Source: a virus
Reading direction: 5' to 3' (one strand)
IMG/VR virus record: IMGVR_UViG_3300032006_000043
Coordinates: 1-32,428 of that record
DNA length: 32,428 nt
The number at the start of each line of letters is the position of its first letter. The stretch's first letter is position 1. Positions 2,843 through 32,200 of the stretch are shown in pieces. The notes under the pieces are model-generated. The model made no database searches. It was not told the origin of the DNA and saw only the letters and a list, made by a program, of their open reading frames with translations. The position numbers and the translations under genes were made by a program.

Positions 2843-4207
2843 TTAAGCAGTTCTTAACCAAAGCTTCTGTGTACTAACCGTTTCTGATGAGCTTTGTACC
2901 GTTTGGCCTGCATAAACACCTGTGTATTGGCCTGTGTATATGCCTGTGTATATACCAGTATATATTCCTGTGTATGTTCCTGTGTATTCACCTGTGTATT
3001 GGCCTGTATATACAGAAGTTCCTACATAATTACCTGTATAAGCACCTGTGTATGCTCCTGTGTAAACACCTGTATAAGTTTTAGCACCTGTATAGTTGCC
3101 TACAAAAACACCTGTGTATGAACCTGAGTATGTTGTTCCTGTGTATGAACCACCAAATGTTCTTGCATAACCGCCTGTATAAGCGCCGGTGTATGAACCT
3201 TGATATGTAGATGTTCCTGCAAAGTTTCCTGAGAAGTTACCCGAGAAGTCTCCGGAATATTGTCCTGTATAAGTTTTAGCTCCTGTAAATCCACCTGTAA
3301 ATGTTCCTGCAAAGTCTCCTGAGAAGTTACCCGAGAAGTCACCCGAGAAGTTTCCAGTATAGTTACCTGAATAATCACCAGTATAGTTTGAATCTGATAC
3401 TGTTTTCCTAGTATCTGTCCAACCACCTGCATCGCCCATCTGTGTCCATGTTCCTGTTTCACTAGGTGTAGAAGCTTGTAATTTATATGTACCAACACCT
3501 TGTGTTGATCCAAAGTTTTCAATAATTCTATTTCTAAAATTAGGTGTAATTTGTTCCATTTCAGCAACAGTCATTTCTTTAATGCCTGTATCATTTTCTA
3601 CTTTACATGGTTTGTAATTATCAACTGCTGAACTTGTTGCTGTTGTCTTTTGCCAAATATACATATTATTAGTAGTACCATCTACCTGTGTATCTGCTAT
3701 TGTATATCTAGATGTCCAAGTTCCGCCTGCTGGACTAGAAGCTGCTAATGAATATTGTCCTGTTGTATAGTTGCCTTGTCCAACCATATCGGCTATTATT
3801 TTATCAATAAGATCTGAGTCTAATTCTGAATCAGTAAATTCGTTAATACCAACATCACCTGAGGTTTCATAACCTACTGGTCTGTTAGTAATACTTTCTG
3901 ATGCTGCACCTGTAACTTGCTTTGCAGTATATGTATTGACGGTCGTTGTGCCACCGCCTGAAGGGTGTGTTCCTACAGCATCTGATCTTTTGGTATCTAC
4001 ACATGTTCCTATTGTAGTACCTGATCCTGAAGCATCAGTAGTTACATTTAACTCTGCTGCTCCTGTGCCGTCGGCATTATCGGAAAATTCCTTTGTTATA
4101 ATTGCTGAATAATATTGTTCAATTTCAGCATCCGTCATCTCCTGCAAACCTTGATAGTTTGAAGAGCTAACCGGATATGCCGATGCTTTTACCCTTAATG
4201 GTCTCAT
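2843..4207 (-). CDS. Tail-fibre-like protein with aromatic-T/S-G tetrapeptide repeats, 454 aa
   Basis: The N-terminal part carries three copies of a helix motif of the EMTDAEIEQ type, near residues 23, 124 and 212. The second and third are followed by a GTW(T) beta segment (GGTWTSRYT, TGTWTQMGD). From about residue 275 to 434 the chain is almost entirely four-residue units of the form x-(Y/F)-(T/S)-G, broken at intervals by the dipeptides AK and TS. The C terminus (QKLWLRTA) looks like a conserved cap. The pattern suggests a regular beta-rich rod, and the position at the end of the baseplate/fibre gene run suggests a surface-exposed fibre or host-contact protein. I know no biochemical function for it. 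Confidence 0.7.
   Translation of the reverse strand: MRPLRVKASAYPVSSSNYQGLQEMTDAEIEQYYSAIITKEFSDNADGTGAAELNVTTDASGSGTTIGTCVDTKRSDAVGTHPSGGGTTTVNTYTAKQVTGAASESITNRPVGYETSGDVGINEFTDSELDSDLIDKIIADMVGQGNYTTGQYSLAASSPAGGTWTSRYTIADTQVDGTTNNMYIWQKTTATSSAVDNYKPCKVENDTGIKEMTVAEMEQITPNFRNRIIENFGSTQGVGTYKLQASTPSETGTWTQMGDAGGWTDTRKTVSDSNYTGDYSGNYTGNFSGDFSGNFSGDFAGTFTGGFTGAKTYTGQYSGDFSGNFSGNFAGTSTYQGSYTGAYTGGYARTFGGSYTGTTYSGSYTGVFVGNYTGAKTYTGVYTGAYTGAYTGNYVGTSVYTGQYTGEYTGTYTGIYTGIYTGIYTGQYTGVYAGQTVQSSSETVSTQKLWLRTA
2906..3388 (-). repeat. Tandem 12-base coding repeat
   Basis: About 38 units of 12 bases each encode x-(Y/F)-(T/S/A)-G within the 454-residue protein. The units are grouped. Blocks open with AK-TYTG, run for five units, and switch to TS plus another run, and this AK/TS alternation occurs twice. 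The units towards the C terminus (low coordinates) are nearly identical at DNA level (repeats of the cctgtgtat type on the plus strand), while those at the N-terminal end have diverged to F-S-G. Near-identical repeats can change copy number by slippage or recombination. Confidence 0.9.
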
Positions 4208-26324: not shown

Positions 26325-27020
26325 ATGGCATTACCAATTTTAGAAACTCCAACATTTGAGTTGACAATTCCTTCTACTAAGGAAACATTTAAGTTTAGAC
26401 CATTTTTAGTAAAAGAAGAAAAGTTATTAATGTTGGCATCCGAATCAGGACAATTTCAAGGAATGGTTGAAGCTTGTCAACAAGTTGTAACAAACTGTTC
26501 TTTTGGAGAACTTGACGGAACTAAACAAACTATGTTTGATCTTCAGTATCTTTTTATTCAATTAAGAAGTAATTCTGTAGGTAAAGATCAAACATTTACT
26601 TTAACATGTGGTGGTTGTGAAAAGCAAACCCCATATAAACTAAACTTAGAAGACATGGAAGTACATGGTCTTGAAGATGAGGTTAATAATAAAATAACTA
26701 TAAATGATACAATGGGATTGGTATTAAAATACCCATCATCTACTTTATTAGCTAGCCCAGATTTAACTGATTATGATATTATATGTGGTTGTTTAGATTA
26801 TGTTTATACTGAAGAAGAAACTATATCGGCTCAAGGTGAGTCTAAGGAAGAAATAGAAAATTTTATAGATGCTTTGCCTATAAGTGCAATGAATCAAATA
26901 AGAGACTATTTTGAAAAGATGCCTTTAGTTGAGTATGTAGTAGATTACAAGTGCAACGAAGAAGGTTGTGGACACGAAAATAAAATCTCCATTAATGGAG
27001 CGGAACATTTTTTCGTCTAA
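26325..27020 (+). CDS. gp26: Baseplate hub assembly protein gp26, 231 aa
   Basis: The N terminus ILETPTFELTIPSTKETFKFRPFLVKEEKLL is the typical gp26 start of T4-like phages. It is followed by FDLQYLFIQLRSNSVGK and MGLVLKYPS. Two cysteine pairs, C95-x2-C98 and C210-x4-C215, could bind a metal as a zinc ribbon. In T4, gp26 is needed for hub assembly. Here the product ends HFFV at 27020, but the codons for HFF form a T TTT TTC slip site. A fraction of ribosomes should therefore shift to -1 and add the 64-residue gp51-like segment. AGGAG six bases upstream supports the start. Confidence 0.85.
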   Translation: MALPILETPTFELTIPSTKETFKFRPFLVKEEKLLMLASESGQFQGMVEACQQVVTNCSFGELDGTKQTMFDLQYLFIQLRSNSVGKDQTFTLTCGGCEKQTPYKLNLEDMEVHGLEDEVNNKITINDTMGLVLKYPSSTLLASPDLTDYDIICGCLDYVYTEEETISAQGESKEEIENFIDALPISAMNQIRDYFEKMPLVEYVVDYKCNEEGCGHENKISINGAEHFFV

Positions 27021-27036
27021 CTCTTTCTCATGAAAG
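27008..27036 (+). promoter_or_regulatory. Programmed -1 frameshift site at the end of gp26
   Basis: T-TTT-TTC (27008-27014) lies in the gp26 frame as X-XXY-YYZ, the classic -1 slip site, two codons before the TAA. Eight bases downstream is a possible short stem CTTTC-TCAT-GAAAG (27023-27036), within the spacing usual for a stimulatory hairpin, though only 5 bp long. Confidence 0.7.
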
Positions 27037-27208
27037 CCTTGAAAACTATTATAGAACTAACTTCTTGTTAATGCAAGAACATAATTATAGTTTAACAGAA
27101 TTAGAAAATATGATGCCGTGGGAAAGAGAAGTATATGTATCAATGTTAGTTGATCATTTAAATAAAAAGGCCGAGGAGGCTAAAAAGAGGCAACAACAAA
27201 GAGGATAA
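27014..27208 (+). CDS. gp51-like extension, made as a gp26 frameshift fusion
   Basis: In the -1 frame after the slip site the codons read RLTLSHESLENYYRTNFLLM, a basic-acidic helix with ELENMMPWEREVY, then YVSMLVDHLNKKAEEAKK, and end at TAA 27206-27208. This resembles the short gp51-type hub-assembly factor found after gp26 in T4-like phages. The -1 frame is open only from 26996 and has no ATG or GTG before the conserved LENYYRTNF part. The first possible starts (TTG, then ATG in LLMQEHN) would cut it off. A 294-residue gp26-gp51 fusion is therefore the likely product. The stop is directly adjacent to the ATG of the next gene (TAAATG). Confidence 0.75.
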   Translation, partial: RLTLSHESLENYYRTNFLLMQEHNYSLTELENMMPWEREVYVSMLVDHLNKKAEEAKKRQQQRG

Positions 27209-30200
27209 ATGTCAGACTTAAAAACAATAACTGGAATGATTGATGAGATGCAACGTAATCAGCGTGAGCATGGTGCTGATATAAGTGCGCTTGAAAATCA
27301 CGCTAAAGATAATAAAATGCTTAACGTTGCACAGTTTGCTGAATCTGCTTATCAGAATATTGAACAAGGAAAGAGAGATAGGAAAGTTGAGGAAAACCAG
27401 CAATCGCAAAGAAAGCATAATAAGGCTGCAGCAGATAGTAGAAGAAGTCTCCAGGCAGGTATTAACAGAATAGAAAATGCTGTCTCGGGAGGCGGTGGTT
27501 CTGGTGGTGGTTCTGGTGGTGGTAGTGCCGCACCTAGTGGCGGAGGTTTAACCGGCGGAGGTGTAAAGTCTAGAACATGGCAAGGTAGAAATAGATTAGA
27601 TTATGATGTTACTTCGGCTCGTATAAAAATGTCTCAAGGCTATTCAGCCAATGAAGACCAAGCAAATAAAATATTACAAGAGGAAGAAGCTGCTGCCAAA
27701 GAGTTGAAAAAATTCTTTGAAATGATGGCAAGAATGAGAAGTGTAGTACCAAGAGCTGCAGATAAGGAAAGAGCAAAATTACAAAGACAATTAGAAAAAG
27801 CTTTAGCATTAATTAAAGACCCAGAAAACAAAGAGGCTTTAATTAAAATTTTTAATATAGAAGATGCTAAACTAGGATTAAAAGGAAAACTATCAGGTGT
27901 AATAGAAAGTTATACAGATAAGGATTCGCCTTTTCCTGGAAAACCAGGAGGAGTAAGAGGAAAGATACAAGGATTTACAGATAATTTATTAGGTATTGAT
28001 AGAAAGACAGGAAGAATTGGTGCGGGGTTTGAACGTCCTGACTTTATGAAAGGTGGCCTTTTAGGATGGGCCTCGACGAAAATGGGACTTGATAAACCTA
28101 CTAGAGGTTTCCAGGCAAATTGGCTAAACAGACAAGGTGCAGAAGAAGAGTTATTTACAGAAGAAGTAGAACAAAATATATCCAAAGGATTTGGTAACAT
28201 CTTTGGAAGTGAAGGTGGAAGCTCTGGAGGTAGTTTAGGTTCAGCTACAAGCAAAGCAAGCAAAGATGACGAACTTTTAACTGTTGTAAAAGAAATTAGA
28301 GACATAGTTAAAGATGGCTTCTCTCCTACACCAGGTGGAAGTTACGGTCCTCAAGGACCTTCAGGTGGTGATCCCTTAGATAAATCAGACGACATAAAAC
28401 TATTACCTCCTCCAGGTTCTAGAAGCAGTGATTTAATGAACATTCGTAAACACCACCAATCACAAAAAACAGGATATGGATTTTACGATCAGTCAAGAGG
28501 TGTTTGGCGTAAAGACGGAAACCTAGCAGTACAAACAGGTGCACAAGGAACATTAGCAGGATCTGCTATGGTAGCACATAAGTCTTCTTCTGACAGAAGA
28601 ATGACTGATGAAGAATATGAACAATTCCTAGGAAACGCTGATGATTATGGCGGTGAAGGAAGAATGGGGCTAGGAGGAATAGGCCTATTCATGGCTAGGA
28701 ATAAGATTCGGAGTTTCGCATCTCGTGTAGGAGGTAGGTTATTTGGAGGAGGAGCTCCTGCTAGAGGATTTGCAACAGCAGCACAAGCCGGCCCAGGAGC
28801 GGTACAGGCTAGATCAGGTAGATGGTACAATCCAAGCAGTACTCAAGGCAAAACTATATTAAACAGTCAAGGTGGTTCAGCCAAACCAACAAATATGTCA
28901 AAATTGGCAAGGCTTGGAAGATTTGCTCCTGGTATAGGACCTCTTGCGGCTGCTGGTGGAATTGGATTGGATTGGTGGAACAAAGCAGAGAATAGGGCTG
29001 CAAACGATGATGCACTAGATATGGGATTGGTTGATGAAGACATACACGAAGAAGTCGATTTGGCAAACCAAAATCCATGGCAGGAGACGGCAGCATCTGT
29101 TGCAACAGGTGCAGCAACTTATGCAACTGCGGCCGCTGTCTGGAGTCCTCCACATCCTATTGCCAAAGCTGTTATAGCTACAGGCGCAGGGATCGTCGGT
29201 GGAGCCGTCTATGGCGTAGGTTCTCTAATTAGAAGAAACAGGGCTAAGAAAATTGCAGCAGAAAGTAATGTATTCGGTGGCTTACGAGATCAAGAAGCTA
29301 AATTAAGCGATGTCAAGAATAAAATTCCTTCTAAGAATTTAGCTGCTATGAATGCAAACAAACAAAAAATTAAAAAAGAATTAATAGACAAATATGCAGC
29401 TGGAGATATATCTAGACTTACACCTAACGACCAAAGACAGCTTGATATATTAGCAGAAAAACAAGCAATGCAGGCAACACCTGAAATAGCTAATTTACCA
29501 GACGTTCAGTTAGCATTAAACGAGTTAGAAGAAGTTGGCGGTGACGAAAGTGATTGGGCACAACAATTACAAAATAGACCACAAGATGATACTATAGCTG
29601 GTAGGTTTGGAGACTTATACCAAGGAACAGAAGGTGGAGGAAGTGTAGCGAAATCAACTAGAGAGATAATGATGAGTGGTGAGGAAGGGGATTTAACTGG
29701 AAGGGGATTGATGGGCCCACCAGAACCAGGAAAGCCTAGAGGTTACGCGCAAGGTAATGCGTGGGATCTTGAAAGTATTAGAAGAAAAGAAGCACATGAT
29801 AGAGGTGAAGATCCTGGAAGAAGTAAATTTGGATTTAAAAAACTAAGCCATGGTGGTATGAAACCAGAACAGTATGACCAACAAGAAGTAACTGACTCAT
29901 TAATGAGACATTATGAATCTAAAGTTTCTAATGTAGGAGACACAGGCTCAGAAACTACAAAAGGATTTATGGGCATATTTGATAAGGATAATTGGCGAGA
30001 AGCTGCTAAAGGTAGTTTCCTTGATAGATGGGGTTGGACAGATGATGCAAAAGAACAAAGAAGTCCTGAAGAAGTTAATGAAGCTATTAAATATAGAGCA
30101 TCAATTCTTGTACAAGATATGATAAAAGGCTCTGGTTTAACTGGAGAAATACTTACAGAAATGAAACCTGATATGCTTGAAGAAGCAATGCACAAAGCAA

Positions 30201-30622
30201 GAATGGAATTTGCTAATGATGAAGCAGGCTTTATGGACAATTACGGAGGCAAACCTAAAGTAGAAGATCCTTATACAACACCTGGAGGGTTTGGTTCTAG
30301 AATTAAAGGAGCATTAGGTAGATTGTTTGGTGGTGAAGAAGAGCTTGATAGTGTAGCAAAATTAGAAGGTGGCTTTGAAGAAGACGATCCAGGACAACAC
30401 TTATTCAAATTTACTCCACCAACAGCAGATGCTGTTGATGCTGGACAAAGAGCTGTTGGGGCAGTTACAGGAGCACAAGCAGCTGGTAACAATGTTGTAG
30501 ACAATAGCACTGTTATTAACAACAATGGTGGCGGTGGAAGCATAACTGTAGCTCCTCTTAATGTAAGAGACACAGGATCTAGTGTTAGTGATACAGTAGA
30601 GAATTTCTTAAGAGTTAGCTAA
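27209..30622 (+). CDS. Large hub/tape-measure candidate in the gp29 position, 1137 aa
   Basis: The N-terminal 90 residues are a charged helix/coiled coil with QRKHN repeats. Residues about 93-119 are a Gly/Ser linker, and 120-250 are again helical. A Gly/Ala-rich region around 490-690 includes a hydrophobic stretch, AKAVIATGAGIVGGAVYGVG (about 651-670), that could cross a membrane. The C terminus is a helical region followed by NNVVDNSTVINNNGGGGS and a short final beta segment. Position directly after the gp26-gp51 assembly factors is where tail tape measures occur, and the hydrophobic stretch also fits. T4 gp29 has 590 residues, so this would be nearly twice the usual length. I cannot show homology by eye. 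Confidence 0.55.
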   Translation: MSDLKTITGMIDEMQRNQREHGADISALENHAKDNKMLNVAQFAESAYQNIEQGKRDRKVEENQQSQRKHNKAAADSRRSLQAGINRIENAVSGGGGSGGGSGGGSAAPSGGGLTGGGVKSRTWQGRNRLDYDVTSARIKMSQGYSANEDQANKILQEEEAAAKELKKFFEMMARMRSVVPRAADKERAKLQRQLEKALALIKDPENKEALIKIFNIEDAKLGLKGKLSGVIESYTDKDSPFPGKPGGVRGKIQGFTDNLLGIDRKTGRIGAGFERPDFMKGGLLGWASTKMGLDKPTRGFQANWLNRQGAEEELFTEEVEQNISKGFGNIFGSEGGSSGGSLGSATSKASKDDELLTVVKEIRDIVKDGFSPTPGGSYGPQGPSGGDPLDKSDDIKLLPPPGSRSSDLMNIRKHHQSQKTGYGFYDQSRGVWRKDGNLAVQTGAQGTLAGSAMVAHKSSSDRRMTDEEYEQFLGNADDYGGEGRMGLGGIGLFMARNKIRSFASRVGGRLFGGGAPARGFATAAQAGPGAVQARSGRWYNPSSTQGKTILNSQGGSAKPTNMSKLARLGRFAPGIGPLAAAGGIGLDWWNKAENRAANDDALDMGLVDEDIHEEVDLANQNPWQETAASVATGAATYATAAAVWSPPHPIAKAVIATGAGIVGGAVYGVGSLIRRNRAKKIAAESNVFGGLRDQEAKLSDVKNKIPSKNLAAMNANKQKIKKELIDKYAAGDISRLTPNDQRQLDILAEKQAMQATPEIANLPDVQLALNELEEVGGDESDWAQQLQNRPQDDTIAGRFGDLYQGTEGGGSVAKSTREIMMSGEEGDLTGRGLMGPPEPGKPRGYAQGNAWDLESIRRKEAHDRGEDPGRSKFGFKKLSHGGMKPEQYDQQEVTDSLMRHYESKVSNVGDTGSETTKGFMGIFDKDNWREAAKGSFLDRWGWTDDAKEQRSPEEVNEAIKYRASILVQDMIKGSGLTGEILTEMKPDMLEEAMHKARMEFANDEAGFMDNYGGKPKVEDPYTTPGGFGSRIKGALGRLFGGEEELDSVAKLEGGFEEDDPGQHLFKFTPPTADAVDAGQRAVGAVTGAQAAGNNVVDNSTVINNNGGGGSITVAPLNVRDTGSSVSDTVENFLRVS

Positions 30623-30756
30623 TGAAACAAAAAAGACCAGGAGAAGAATCCTGGGAATACATTCTTCGTATTAGAAATAGAATTAATTATCCAATTGAAT
30701 TAGTTTCTTTTGCTTGTATTTTTCTATGTGCTGTTCTATTAGTTCTTTTCTTCTAG
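30622..30756 (+). CDS. Possible small membrane protein, 44 aa
   Basis: The ATG at 30622 overlaps the stop of the 1137-aa gene (TAATG), with AAGAG seven bases upstream. The product has a basic start (MKQKRPGEE), a middle IRNRINYPIE and a C-terminal membrane-like segment ELVSFACIFLCAVLLVLFF. It would be a one-pass protein with the charged end inside. Against it: the last 74 bases are antisense to the 3' end of the radical SAM gene, and the Lys-rich codons there give Phe/Leu on this strand by chance. The terminator hairpin of the opposite gene also falls inside it. Confidence 0.35.
   Translation: MKQKRPGEESWEYILRIRNRINYPIELVSFACIFLCAVLLVLFF
30629..30654 (-). terminator. Intrinsic terminator for the leftward radical SAM unit
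   Basis: On the minus strand CCAGGA and TCCTGG pair around a six-base loop (30654-30637). A TC and a run of six T (30634-30629) follow. It lies about 30 bases past the radical SAM stop codon. On the plus strand no T run follows the hairpin, so it should stop only leftward transcription, before it runs into the rightward arm. Confidence 0.75.
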
Positions 30757-32200
30757 GACCAATTTCCATAAAACTTTTTATTGCAATATCTTTCCATGTA
30801 ACTTCTGGATCAATATAATAATTATCAACAGCAAAAGGATCTATATATTGTGTATGAGGAAACTCTTCCGTTAGCCATTTAAGAGCTTCATATGTTGTCA
30901 TGTTTCCATTATCCCAAGAAAGATACATACCTGTTTTATATAAATCATAAAGTTGTTGATACCATGGATAGTCGCCTGTATCTATTCCTTTATTTTCTGG
31001 ATCAAAAGGAACTTGTTTATAACCATACTCTTTCCAAGACTTATCTAATTTTGAAAAATGACTAAGATCAGGAGCAAAAATATTTAAATCTTTAATCATA
31101 AGAACAGTCATTTGAAAGGGATTGCCTTGCCAATAATTATCAATCCATCTTTTTGTTTCTCTAAGTGAATCTATTGTTTCATATGGAAGTCCTGCAATTA
31201 AAGATAAATGCCCCTTGTAATAACCTGCTTGCTCTGTAAAATATTCTTTTACTTCTAATAATCCATCTTGTAAACGACCTGTATTCATTCCTTTACCTAT
31301 TGTTCTTGCAGAAGAATTATTAAATGATTCAATACCATAAAAATGAGAACAAAATCCCATTGATATTAAATTGTCCCAATCTTTTTTTCTAGATGCTATT
31401 AAGTCTGCTCTAATATATCCTGTAAGTTTAGGTTCAAATGGTAATCGTTTCATTACATTAGCATACTTTTCAATCTTTTCACTTGTATCATTAAATGTTT
31501 CATCTAATACAATGTATGATTCTGTACCCCACTTATCATAATTTTCTAATAATTCATCATATAAATTATTTGCTGATCTAGTATGATCTTCTTTAACTCC
31601 TAATACAGGAAAAGAACAGAAACCACATTTGAACTTACAACCACGAGAAAACTCTAACAACAACACCTCTCTTTCTGTTATATTATCACGTTCTTCATAC
31701 CTTACTGTTAAGTCTGCTTTTGGATATGCTTGATAGTTATGATATGCATCTATAGTTTTATTTACATTAACTGGTTCAGGACCGCCTTGAAAGTGTCTTA
31801 ATAGTTCTAATATAGCGTATTCTCCATAGCCAAATATCTGCCACTCACAATTTAATTCTTTCATAGAAATGTTTTGACTTCCTGCTACAGTTGGAATATC
31901 TGGATATTGTTCTTTTAAATAGTCAACAAGTTTTAAGAGTTCAGGAGTTGCAATTGGAAATGTAGAACTAAATCCGAAGAAAAGAGTATCTTTTGTAATC
32001 CTATCTTCTACTAAAATTTTAAGTTGTTCAAAAGACCATGCGTGTATGTAATCAATTACTTCAATATTGTAATTGTGTTCTCTTAAAAAAGAAGCTATTT
32101 TATGTGCACCTGAGGATCTTCTAATACTGGGTTCAGTACCTTTGTACTGACTTACCATTCCCCCAAATATTAAGCCGTGCATTCTTTGACTCGTTTGCAT
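30683..32200 (-). CDS. Radical SAM protein with B12-binding-like N terminus, 505 aa
   Basis: The cluster-binding motif is C188-x3-C192-x2-C195 (SRGCKFKCGFCSF), preceded by LLLEFSRG as in B12-type radical SAM enzymes. Downstream are GYIRADLIAS, then FYGIESF and LSLIAGLPYET, matching the usual strands of the partial TIM barrel. Residues 30-140 resemble a cobalamin-binding Rossmann domain (IASFLREHNYNIEVIDYI, FFGFSSTFP, IPTVAGSQN), but no DxHxxG motif is visible, so it may not bind B12. The substrate is unknown. The start could be at 32200 or at the ATG six codons later (32182); both overlap the lysozyme 3' end. A terminator follows at 30629-30654. Confidence 0.85.
   Translation of the reverse strand: MQTSQRMHGLIFGGMVSQYKGTEPSIRRSSGAHKIASFLREHNYNIEVIDYIHAWSFEQLKILVEDRITKDTLFFGFSSTFPIATPELLKLVDYLKEQYPDIPTVAGSQNISMKELNCEWQIFGYGEYAILELLRHFQGGPEPVNVNKTIDAYHNYQAYPKADLTVRYEERDNITEREVLLLEFSRGCKFKCGFCSFPVLGVKEDHTRSANNLYDELLENYDKWGTESYIVLDETFNDTSEKIEKYANVMKRLPFEPKLTGYIRADLIASRKKDWDNLISMGFCSHFYGIESFNNSSARTIGKGMNTGRLQDGLLEVKEYFTEQAGYYKGHLSLIAGLPYETIDSLRETKRWIDNYWQGNPFQMTVLMIKDLNIFAPDLSHFSKLDKSWKEYGYKQVPFDPENKGIDTGDYPWYQQLYDLYKTGMYLSWDNGNMTTYEALKWLTEEFPHTQYIDPFAVDNYYIDPEVTWKDIAIKSFMEIGPRRKELIEQHIEKYKQKKLIQLDN

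Follow-up and report, generated by a model that had tools for sequence, protein, structure and literature searches.

The tail-assembly chaperones gpG and gpGT of phage lambda are made from a slip site that reads G GGA AAG. For T4-like phages, Vladimirov, Gautam and Davidson are said to have identified the tail-assembly chaperone (TAC) genes in 2022, reportedly in Virology 566:9-15, with gp26 as TAC-N and gp51 as TAC-NC. The lambda pair consists of a short form and a -1-frameshifted long form, is located directly upstream of a long ORF and is absent from virions, and G-T frameshifting was described in a 2016 review as widespread, with T4 as an exception (PMC5009743). Passages of both PMC10885494 and PMC12846349 cite the 2022 report of T4-like tail-assembly-chaperone genes; the former passage adds that, in place of frameshifting, certain T4-like phages have a short gene alongside a long fusion gene, and the latter (2025) that T4-like TAC-N genes are known to carry poly-T slip signals. 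The TAC loci of Vandenendeviridae and Andersonviridae (PMC12846349) also slip by -1 on a poly-T motif where TAC-N ends, and their downstream part is likewise often misannotated as a separate gene; however, these are other virus families with an invariant GTTTTT, whereas the locus described here has the full T TTT TTN. In cyanophages, gp51 has been recorded as missing or truncated (PMC3037559). Since T4-like TAC genes and poly-T slip signals are already cited, we consider the arrangement to be of a known kind, which occurs in other tailed phages and whose recognition in T4-like phages, as far as the cited passages go, largely dates from 2022. The conservation figures, lineage distribution and covarying stem presented below may exceed published work.

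In this study, we analyzed the IMG/VR virus contig IMGVR_UViG_3300032006_000043 (32,428 bases, hereafter the window), which comes from a T4-like marine virus and carries a T4-like baseplate cluster. We conclude, with a probability of about 0.9, that genes 26 and '51' of this cluster form a single gene in which a -1 ribosomal frameshift is programmed.

Layout and homology of the locus

The gp26 ORF, which codes for the putative short chaperone form (TAC-N, 'G-like', 231 aa), occupies positions 26325-27020 of the plus strand, where the other elements of the locus are also found. Its 3' end reads GGA GCG GAA CAT TTT TTC GTC TAA. The slippery heptamer T TTT TTC (27008-27014), of the X XXY YYZ type, is phased in the gp26 frame as (CA)T TTT TTC, as required for a tandem -1 slip, and is separated by the single codon GTC from the stop TAA at 27018-27020. 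A Shine-Dalgarno-like GGAG (26997-27000), a possible stimulator, lies 7 nt before the heptamer. TAA codons at 26993-26995 and 27206-27208 bound the open -1 frame (26996-27205), and the ATG (27209) of a 1137-aa ORF directly abuts the second of these stops. From the upstream stop to 27065, the -1 frame of the window contains no ATG, GTG, TTG, CTG or ATN codon; the first possible starts, TTG at 27065 and then ATG at 27071, both fall within the conserved LENYYRTNFLLM motif. The -1-frame extension (27014-27208, 64 aa plus stop), a gp51-like C-terminal domain (TAC-C, 'T-like'), is not an independent gene in the window. An earlier note on this DNA had reported the heptamer near the gp26 stop and a gp51-like helical domain in the -1 frame with no upstream ATG or GTG, and both observations were confirmed.

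According to the proposed mechanism, the majority of ribosomes would halt at the TAA at 27018 and release the 231-aa gp26, and a minority would slip back one base, with two tRNAs re-pairing from (CA)T TTT TTC to TTT TTT at 27008-27014. The slipped ribosomes would continue to 27208 and produce a 294-aa gp26-51 fusion (TAC-NC, 'GT-like', 26325-27208) with the predicted junction peptide ...GAEHFF-RLTLSHES... (EHFFRLTLSHES). We infer both slippage in vivo and its efficiency. If they work as lambda gpG/gpGT do, the two chaperone forms would cover the tape-measure protein, bring in tube subunits and then be gone from the completed tail.

Homology analysis revealed that the window gp26 matched PF12322 (T4_baseplate; E = 2.5e-53, 181 bits against a curated cut-off of 24.5, residues 9-230 of 231) and phrog_150 (E = 7e-54), and that the -1-frame domain matched not only phrog_634 (gp51; E = 5.2e-29) but also the C terminus of the gp26 family, phrog_150 (E = 1.9e-7). 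The last match arises because T4 gp51 is, as judged by these profiles, a full-length gp26-like protein with an extension: T4 gp26 and T4 gp51 both belong to PF12322 (8.8e-64 and 3.9e-52, respectively), and only gp51 of this pair has the extension and continues through the end of phrog_150. By hhalign, the two halves aligned head to tail with adjacent parts of T4-type gp51: residues 6-200 for window-type gp26 (E = 9.8e-14) and residues 200-245 for the -1 domain (E = 2.9e-6). The 294-residue fusion could be aligned over its whole length with T4 gp51, and the product without the shift with T4 gp26. In predicted structures, gp26 (AlphaFold model pLDDT 94) and full-length T4-type gp51 had an identical order of elements, with gp51 adding C-terminal helices where gp26 ends; among solved structures, none was found for gp26 by sequence and no significant match by fold.

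At the level of sequence, the gene product is thus a PF12322 member whose predicted long form ends in the gp51 C-terminal extension, and, as in G/GT-type systems, a conserved slippery sequence lies close to where the short ORF ends and the second ORF has no start of its own in the window. Given that T4 gp51 is matched collinearly by the fusion and T4 gp26 by the short product, the locus has the G/GT (TAC-N/TAC-NC) arrangement of tail-assembly chaperones. The chaperone role that we infer for gp26 and gp26-51 is well founded. The comparison with lambda G/GT drawn in the earlier note was right in function; the likeness is one of arrangement, with T TTT TTC in place of the lambda heptamer. The proposed link between two T4-like hub factors also proved real, but it was not new, T4 gp51 being itself a gp26-like protein with an extension and the TAC genes having been reported in 2022. 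T4 has the same short/long pair from the same family; however, it uses two genes on opposite strands without the heptamer, whereas the window appears to use one frameshifted gene for both. These results correct a common annotation, in that gp26 and gp51, entered as two genes for many cyanophage and related genomes, are probably one frameshifted gene, and the role of T4 gp26/gp51 becomes directly testable as a chaperone ratio. They also provide a natural contrast between phages that would set this ratio by frameshifting and those that would set it by two genes.

Conservation of the slip site and rival explanations

Relatives were drawn from GenBank phages and IMG/VR, which gave 169 loci with both parts, 144 distinct junctions and a divergent set of 122 representatives (<80% identity). 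The loci were selected by protein similarity of both halves and not by the heptamer; thus, the presence of the heptamer is not built into the set. We found an in-frame T TTT TTN at all 144 distinct junctions (the last base being C in 107, T in 32 and A or G in the others), compared with 0.058% of the codons in the remaining ORFs of these loci, although this and the other conservation counts do not represent independent events because the sequences are related. The heptamer was present in Kyanoviridae, pelagiphages, Sinorhizobium/Rhizobium phages, Vibrio phages nt-1 and Va3, Cronobacter LPCS28, Pseudoalteromonas XG4, Stenotrophomonas BUCT608 and Aeromonas P19. The site itself is under selection, as seen at its synonymous positions: the third base of the two slip codons was T in 103/103 and 122/122 cases, compared with 0.734 gene-wide, and no other conserved gp26 column exceeded 0.884. 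Just past the slip, the -1 codon specified Arg in 75 of the 122 representatives and drew on all four CGN codons, while the 0-frame residue at that point varied freely (G/V/E/A). The comparative sequence evidence argues very strongly for a programmed -1 frameshift. The earlier note had proposed this fusion of gp26 to a gp51-like domain and had named conservation of the heptamer and of the missing start in relatives as its own test, which the proposal passed.

It is very unlikely that gp51 is instead a separate protein, translated either by reinitiation after termination at the gp26 stop or from a start of an unusual kind. Database records do annotate gp51 on its own, but at differing starts, and TGATG/TAATG overlaps occur in some relatives, with an ATG overlapping the gp26 stop in several phages (nt-1, Va3, BUCT608 and Y68) and with a TAATG but no heptamer in Vibrio phage D528. 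However, the window offers no start, near-cognate codons included, before 27065, and 102 of the 122 relatives (84%) have no ATG, and 73 no ATG, GTG or TTG, upstream of the conserved motif. A possible start before the motif was thus found in 16% (ATG only) to 40% (ATG/GTG/TTG) of relatives, at scattered positions, and was accompanied by a Shine-Dalgarno match in just three of the 122. Moreover, a separate gp51 would leave both the fixed T TTT TTN and the fused form of T4 gp51 unexplained.

Slippage of RNA polymerase, rather than of the ribosome, on the six-T run could also yield the fused frame, and a run of six to seven Ts is indeed present in every relative. However, six Ts are short for transcriptional slippage, the run is broken by C at 107 of the 144 junctions, and the conservation of exactly these positions is explained by a tandem-slip site in the right codon phase; in addition, the downstream structure and Shine-Dalgarno enrichment described below fit ribosomal slippage, which makes this explanation even less likely than a separate gp51. 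Least credible is that the frame break reflects faulty sequencing or the decay of a fusion gene, with the T run kept only for Phe-Phe. Homopolymer runs are error-prone and Phe-Phe is conserved, but the gp51-like domain was in the -1 frame at 168 of the 169 loci, with the identical break in finished isolate genomes (the sole exception, L145, has a broken gp26). Phe-Phe would also permit TTC, whereas the first Phe was always TTT in the 122 representatives, and the preceding codon varied in amino acid (Ser, Asp, His or Asn) yet always ended in T. Furthermore, the -1 extension is under clear protein constraint. On these comparative sequence data, error or decay is already refuted.

Candidate slip stimulators

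With regard to elements that may promote the programmed frameshift, the short stem highlighted in the earlier note, CTTTC-TCAT-GAAAG (27023-27036), does exist with a spacer of 8 nt, but it is weak. Its 5 bp folded no better than shuffles (z = -0.40), and all five pairs were kept in only 11 of the 122 divergent relatives (0 in slid controls), these being near relatives; it was therefore rejected in general as a conserved stimulator. The 60 nt 3' of the heptamer were more structured than gene-internal controls (z < -2 in 45 vs 10 of 122, p = 8e-8). Part of this excess is a long stem found in a minority of relatives, in which the 5' arm begins about 7 nt past the heptamer and the 3' arm follows some 47 nt later, near +55. 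The arms change yet stay matched (GCTGAGTCA/TGGCTCAGC, GTATTGCA/TGCAATAC and others): the mean pairing score was 14.3 for the true arms compared with 12.4 +/- 0.2 when arms were swapped between phages, and a strong long stem was present in 26/122 (e.g. L064, L129, L136, L068 and L055) vs about 7 expected by arm swapping. The long covarying stem is absent from the window itself. In S-PM2 (L003, about 4013-4050), a 14-bp hairpin just past the slip site (z about -4.4) is distinct from the long-range stem.

Upstream of the site, the Glu codon ahead of the slip was GAG in 31 of 41 cases, compared with 25% gene-wide (p about 1e-11), and Shine-Dalgarno matches of at least 5 nt occurred in 24% vs 15 +/- 3% in synonymous shuffles. 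Thus, with enrichment ranging from weak to moderate, relatives give modest and mixed support to the SD-like GGAG as a possible stimulator.

Lineage exceptions and the downstream ORF

In T4-type phages, gp26 and gp51 are separate genes (on opposite strands in T4), and the heptamer was absent from the eleven T4-type gp26 genes examined, one of which is cut before its end. On the other hand, the frameshift arrangement was kept in other Straboviridae, namely Vibrio nt-1 and Va3, Aeromonas P19 and Cronobacter LPCS28. Vibrio phage D528 (L173, 4560-4600) has lost the heptamer (CTT TTC AAG TAATG) and kept the -1 domain, with an ATG overlapping the stop, which suggests a probable switch to reinitiation. 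An unrooted tree separated T4 gp26, T4 gp51 and the frameshift types into three groups, without indicating which two are sisters, and is compatible with gene duplication having occurred within the T4 lineage. It seems an evenly balanced question whether T TTT TTN frameshifting was the ancestral mode of making short and long chaperones in the T4 superfamily, for which the T4 lineage would have substituted two paralogous genes, with lineage-specific stimulators, including the covarying long-range stem, having evolved. In one genome (L187, 2982-3755), a T4-type gp51 was present as two overlapping ORFs in different frames, reflecting either an error or a natural frameshift.

The 1137-aa ORF at 27209-30622 is, from its position and length, a candidate tape-measure protein. 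It contains a Gly/Ser linker and would correspond to 171 nm if each residue spans 0.15 nm; searches for a tape-measure identity gave no good match, with no hit in Pfam and only a weak one in PHROGs, to a PHROG of unknown function. T4-sized relatives had ORFs of 568-705 aa at the equivalent position. The length of the downstream ORF fitted the tail of S-N03 (933 aa, 138 nm) and roughly that of S-CRM01 (864 aa, 140-170 nm), but not that of S-CREM2 (1565 aa, 418 nm). In the published table of the S-CREM2 virion proteome, ORF206 (gp26) and ORF207 (gp51) were not detected, whereas the next gene, ORF208, had 73 peptides; in this relative, the two products may resemble lambda gpG/gpGT, which are absent from virions. 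T4 gp51 is needed for assembly yet absent from the particle.

Two further observations concern the surroundings of these genes. In S-CREM2 (L176, 5484-14555), gp26/51 is followed by a pair of very long ORFs that carry the label endolysin and whose products were well detected in virions; the first of them alone does not match the reported 418 nm tail. On the minus strand of the window, a radical SAM protein with a weak B12-binding match (30683-32200) lies beside the tail genes and is a possible auxiliary gene.
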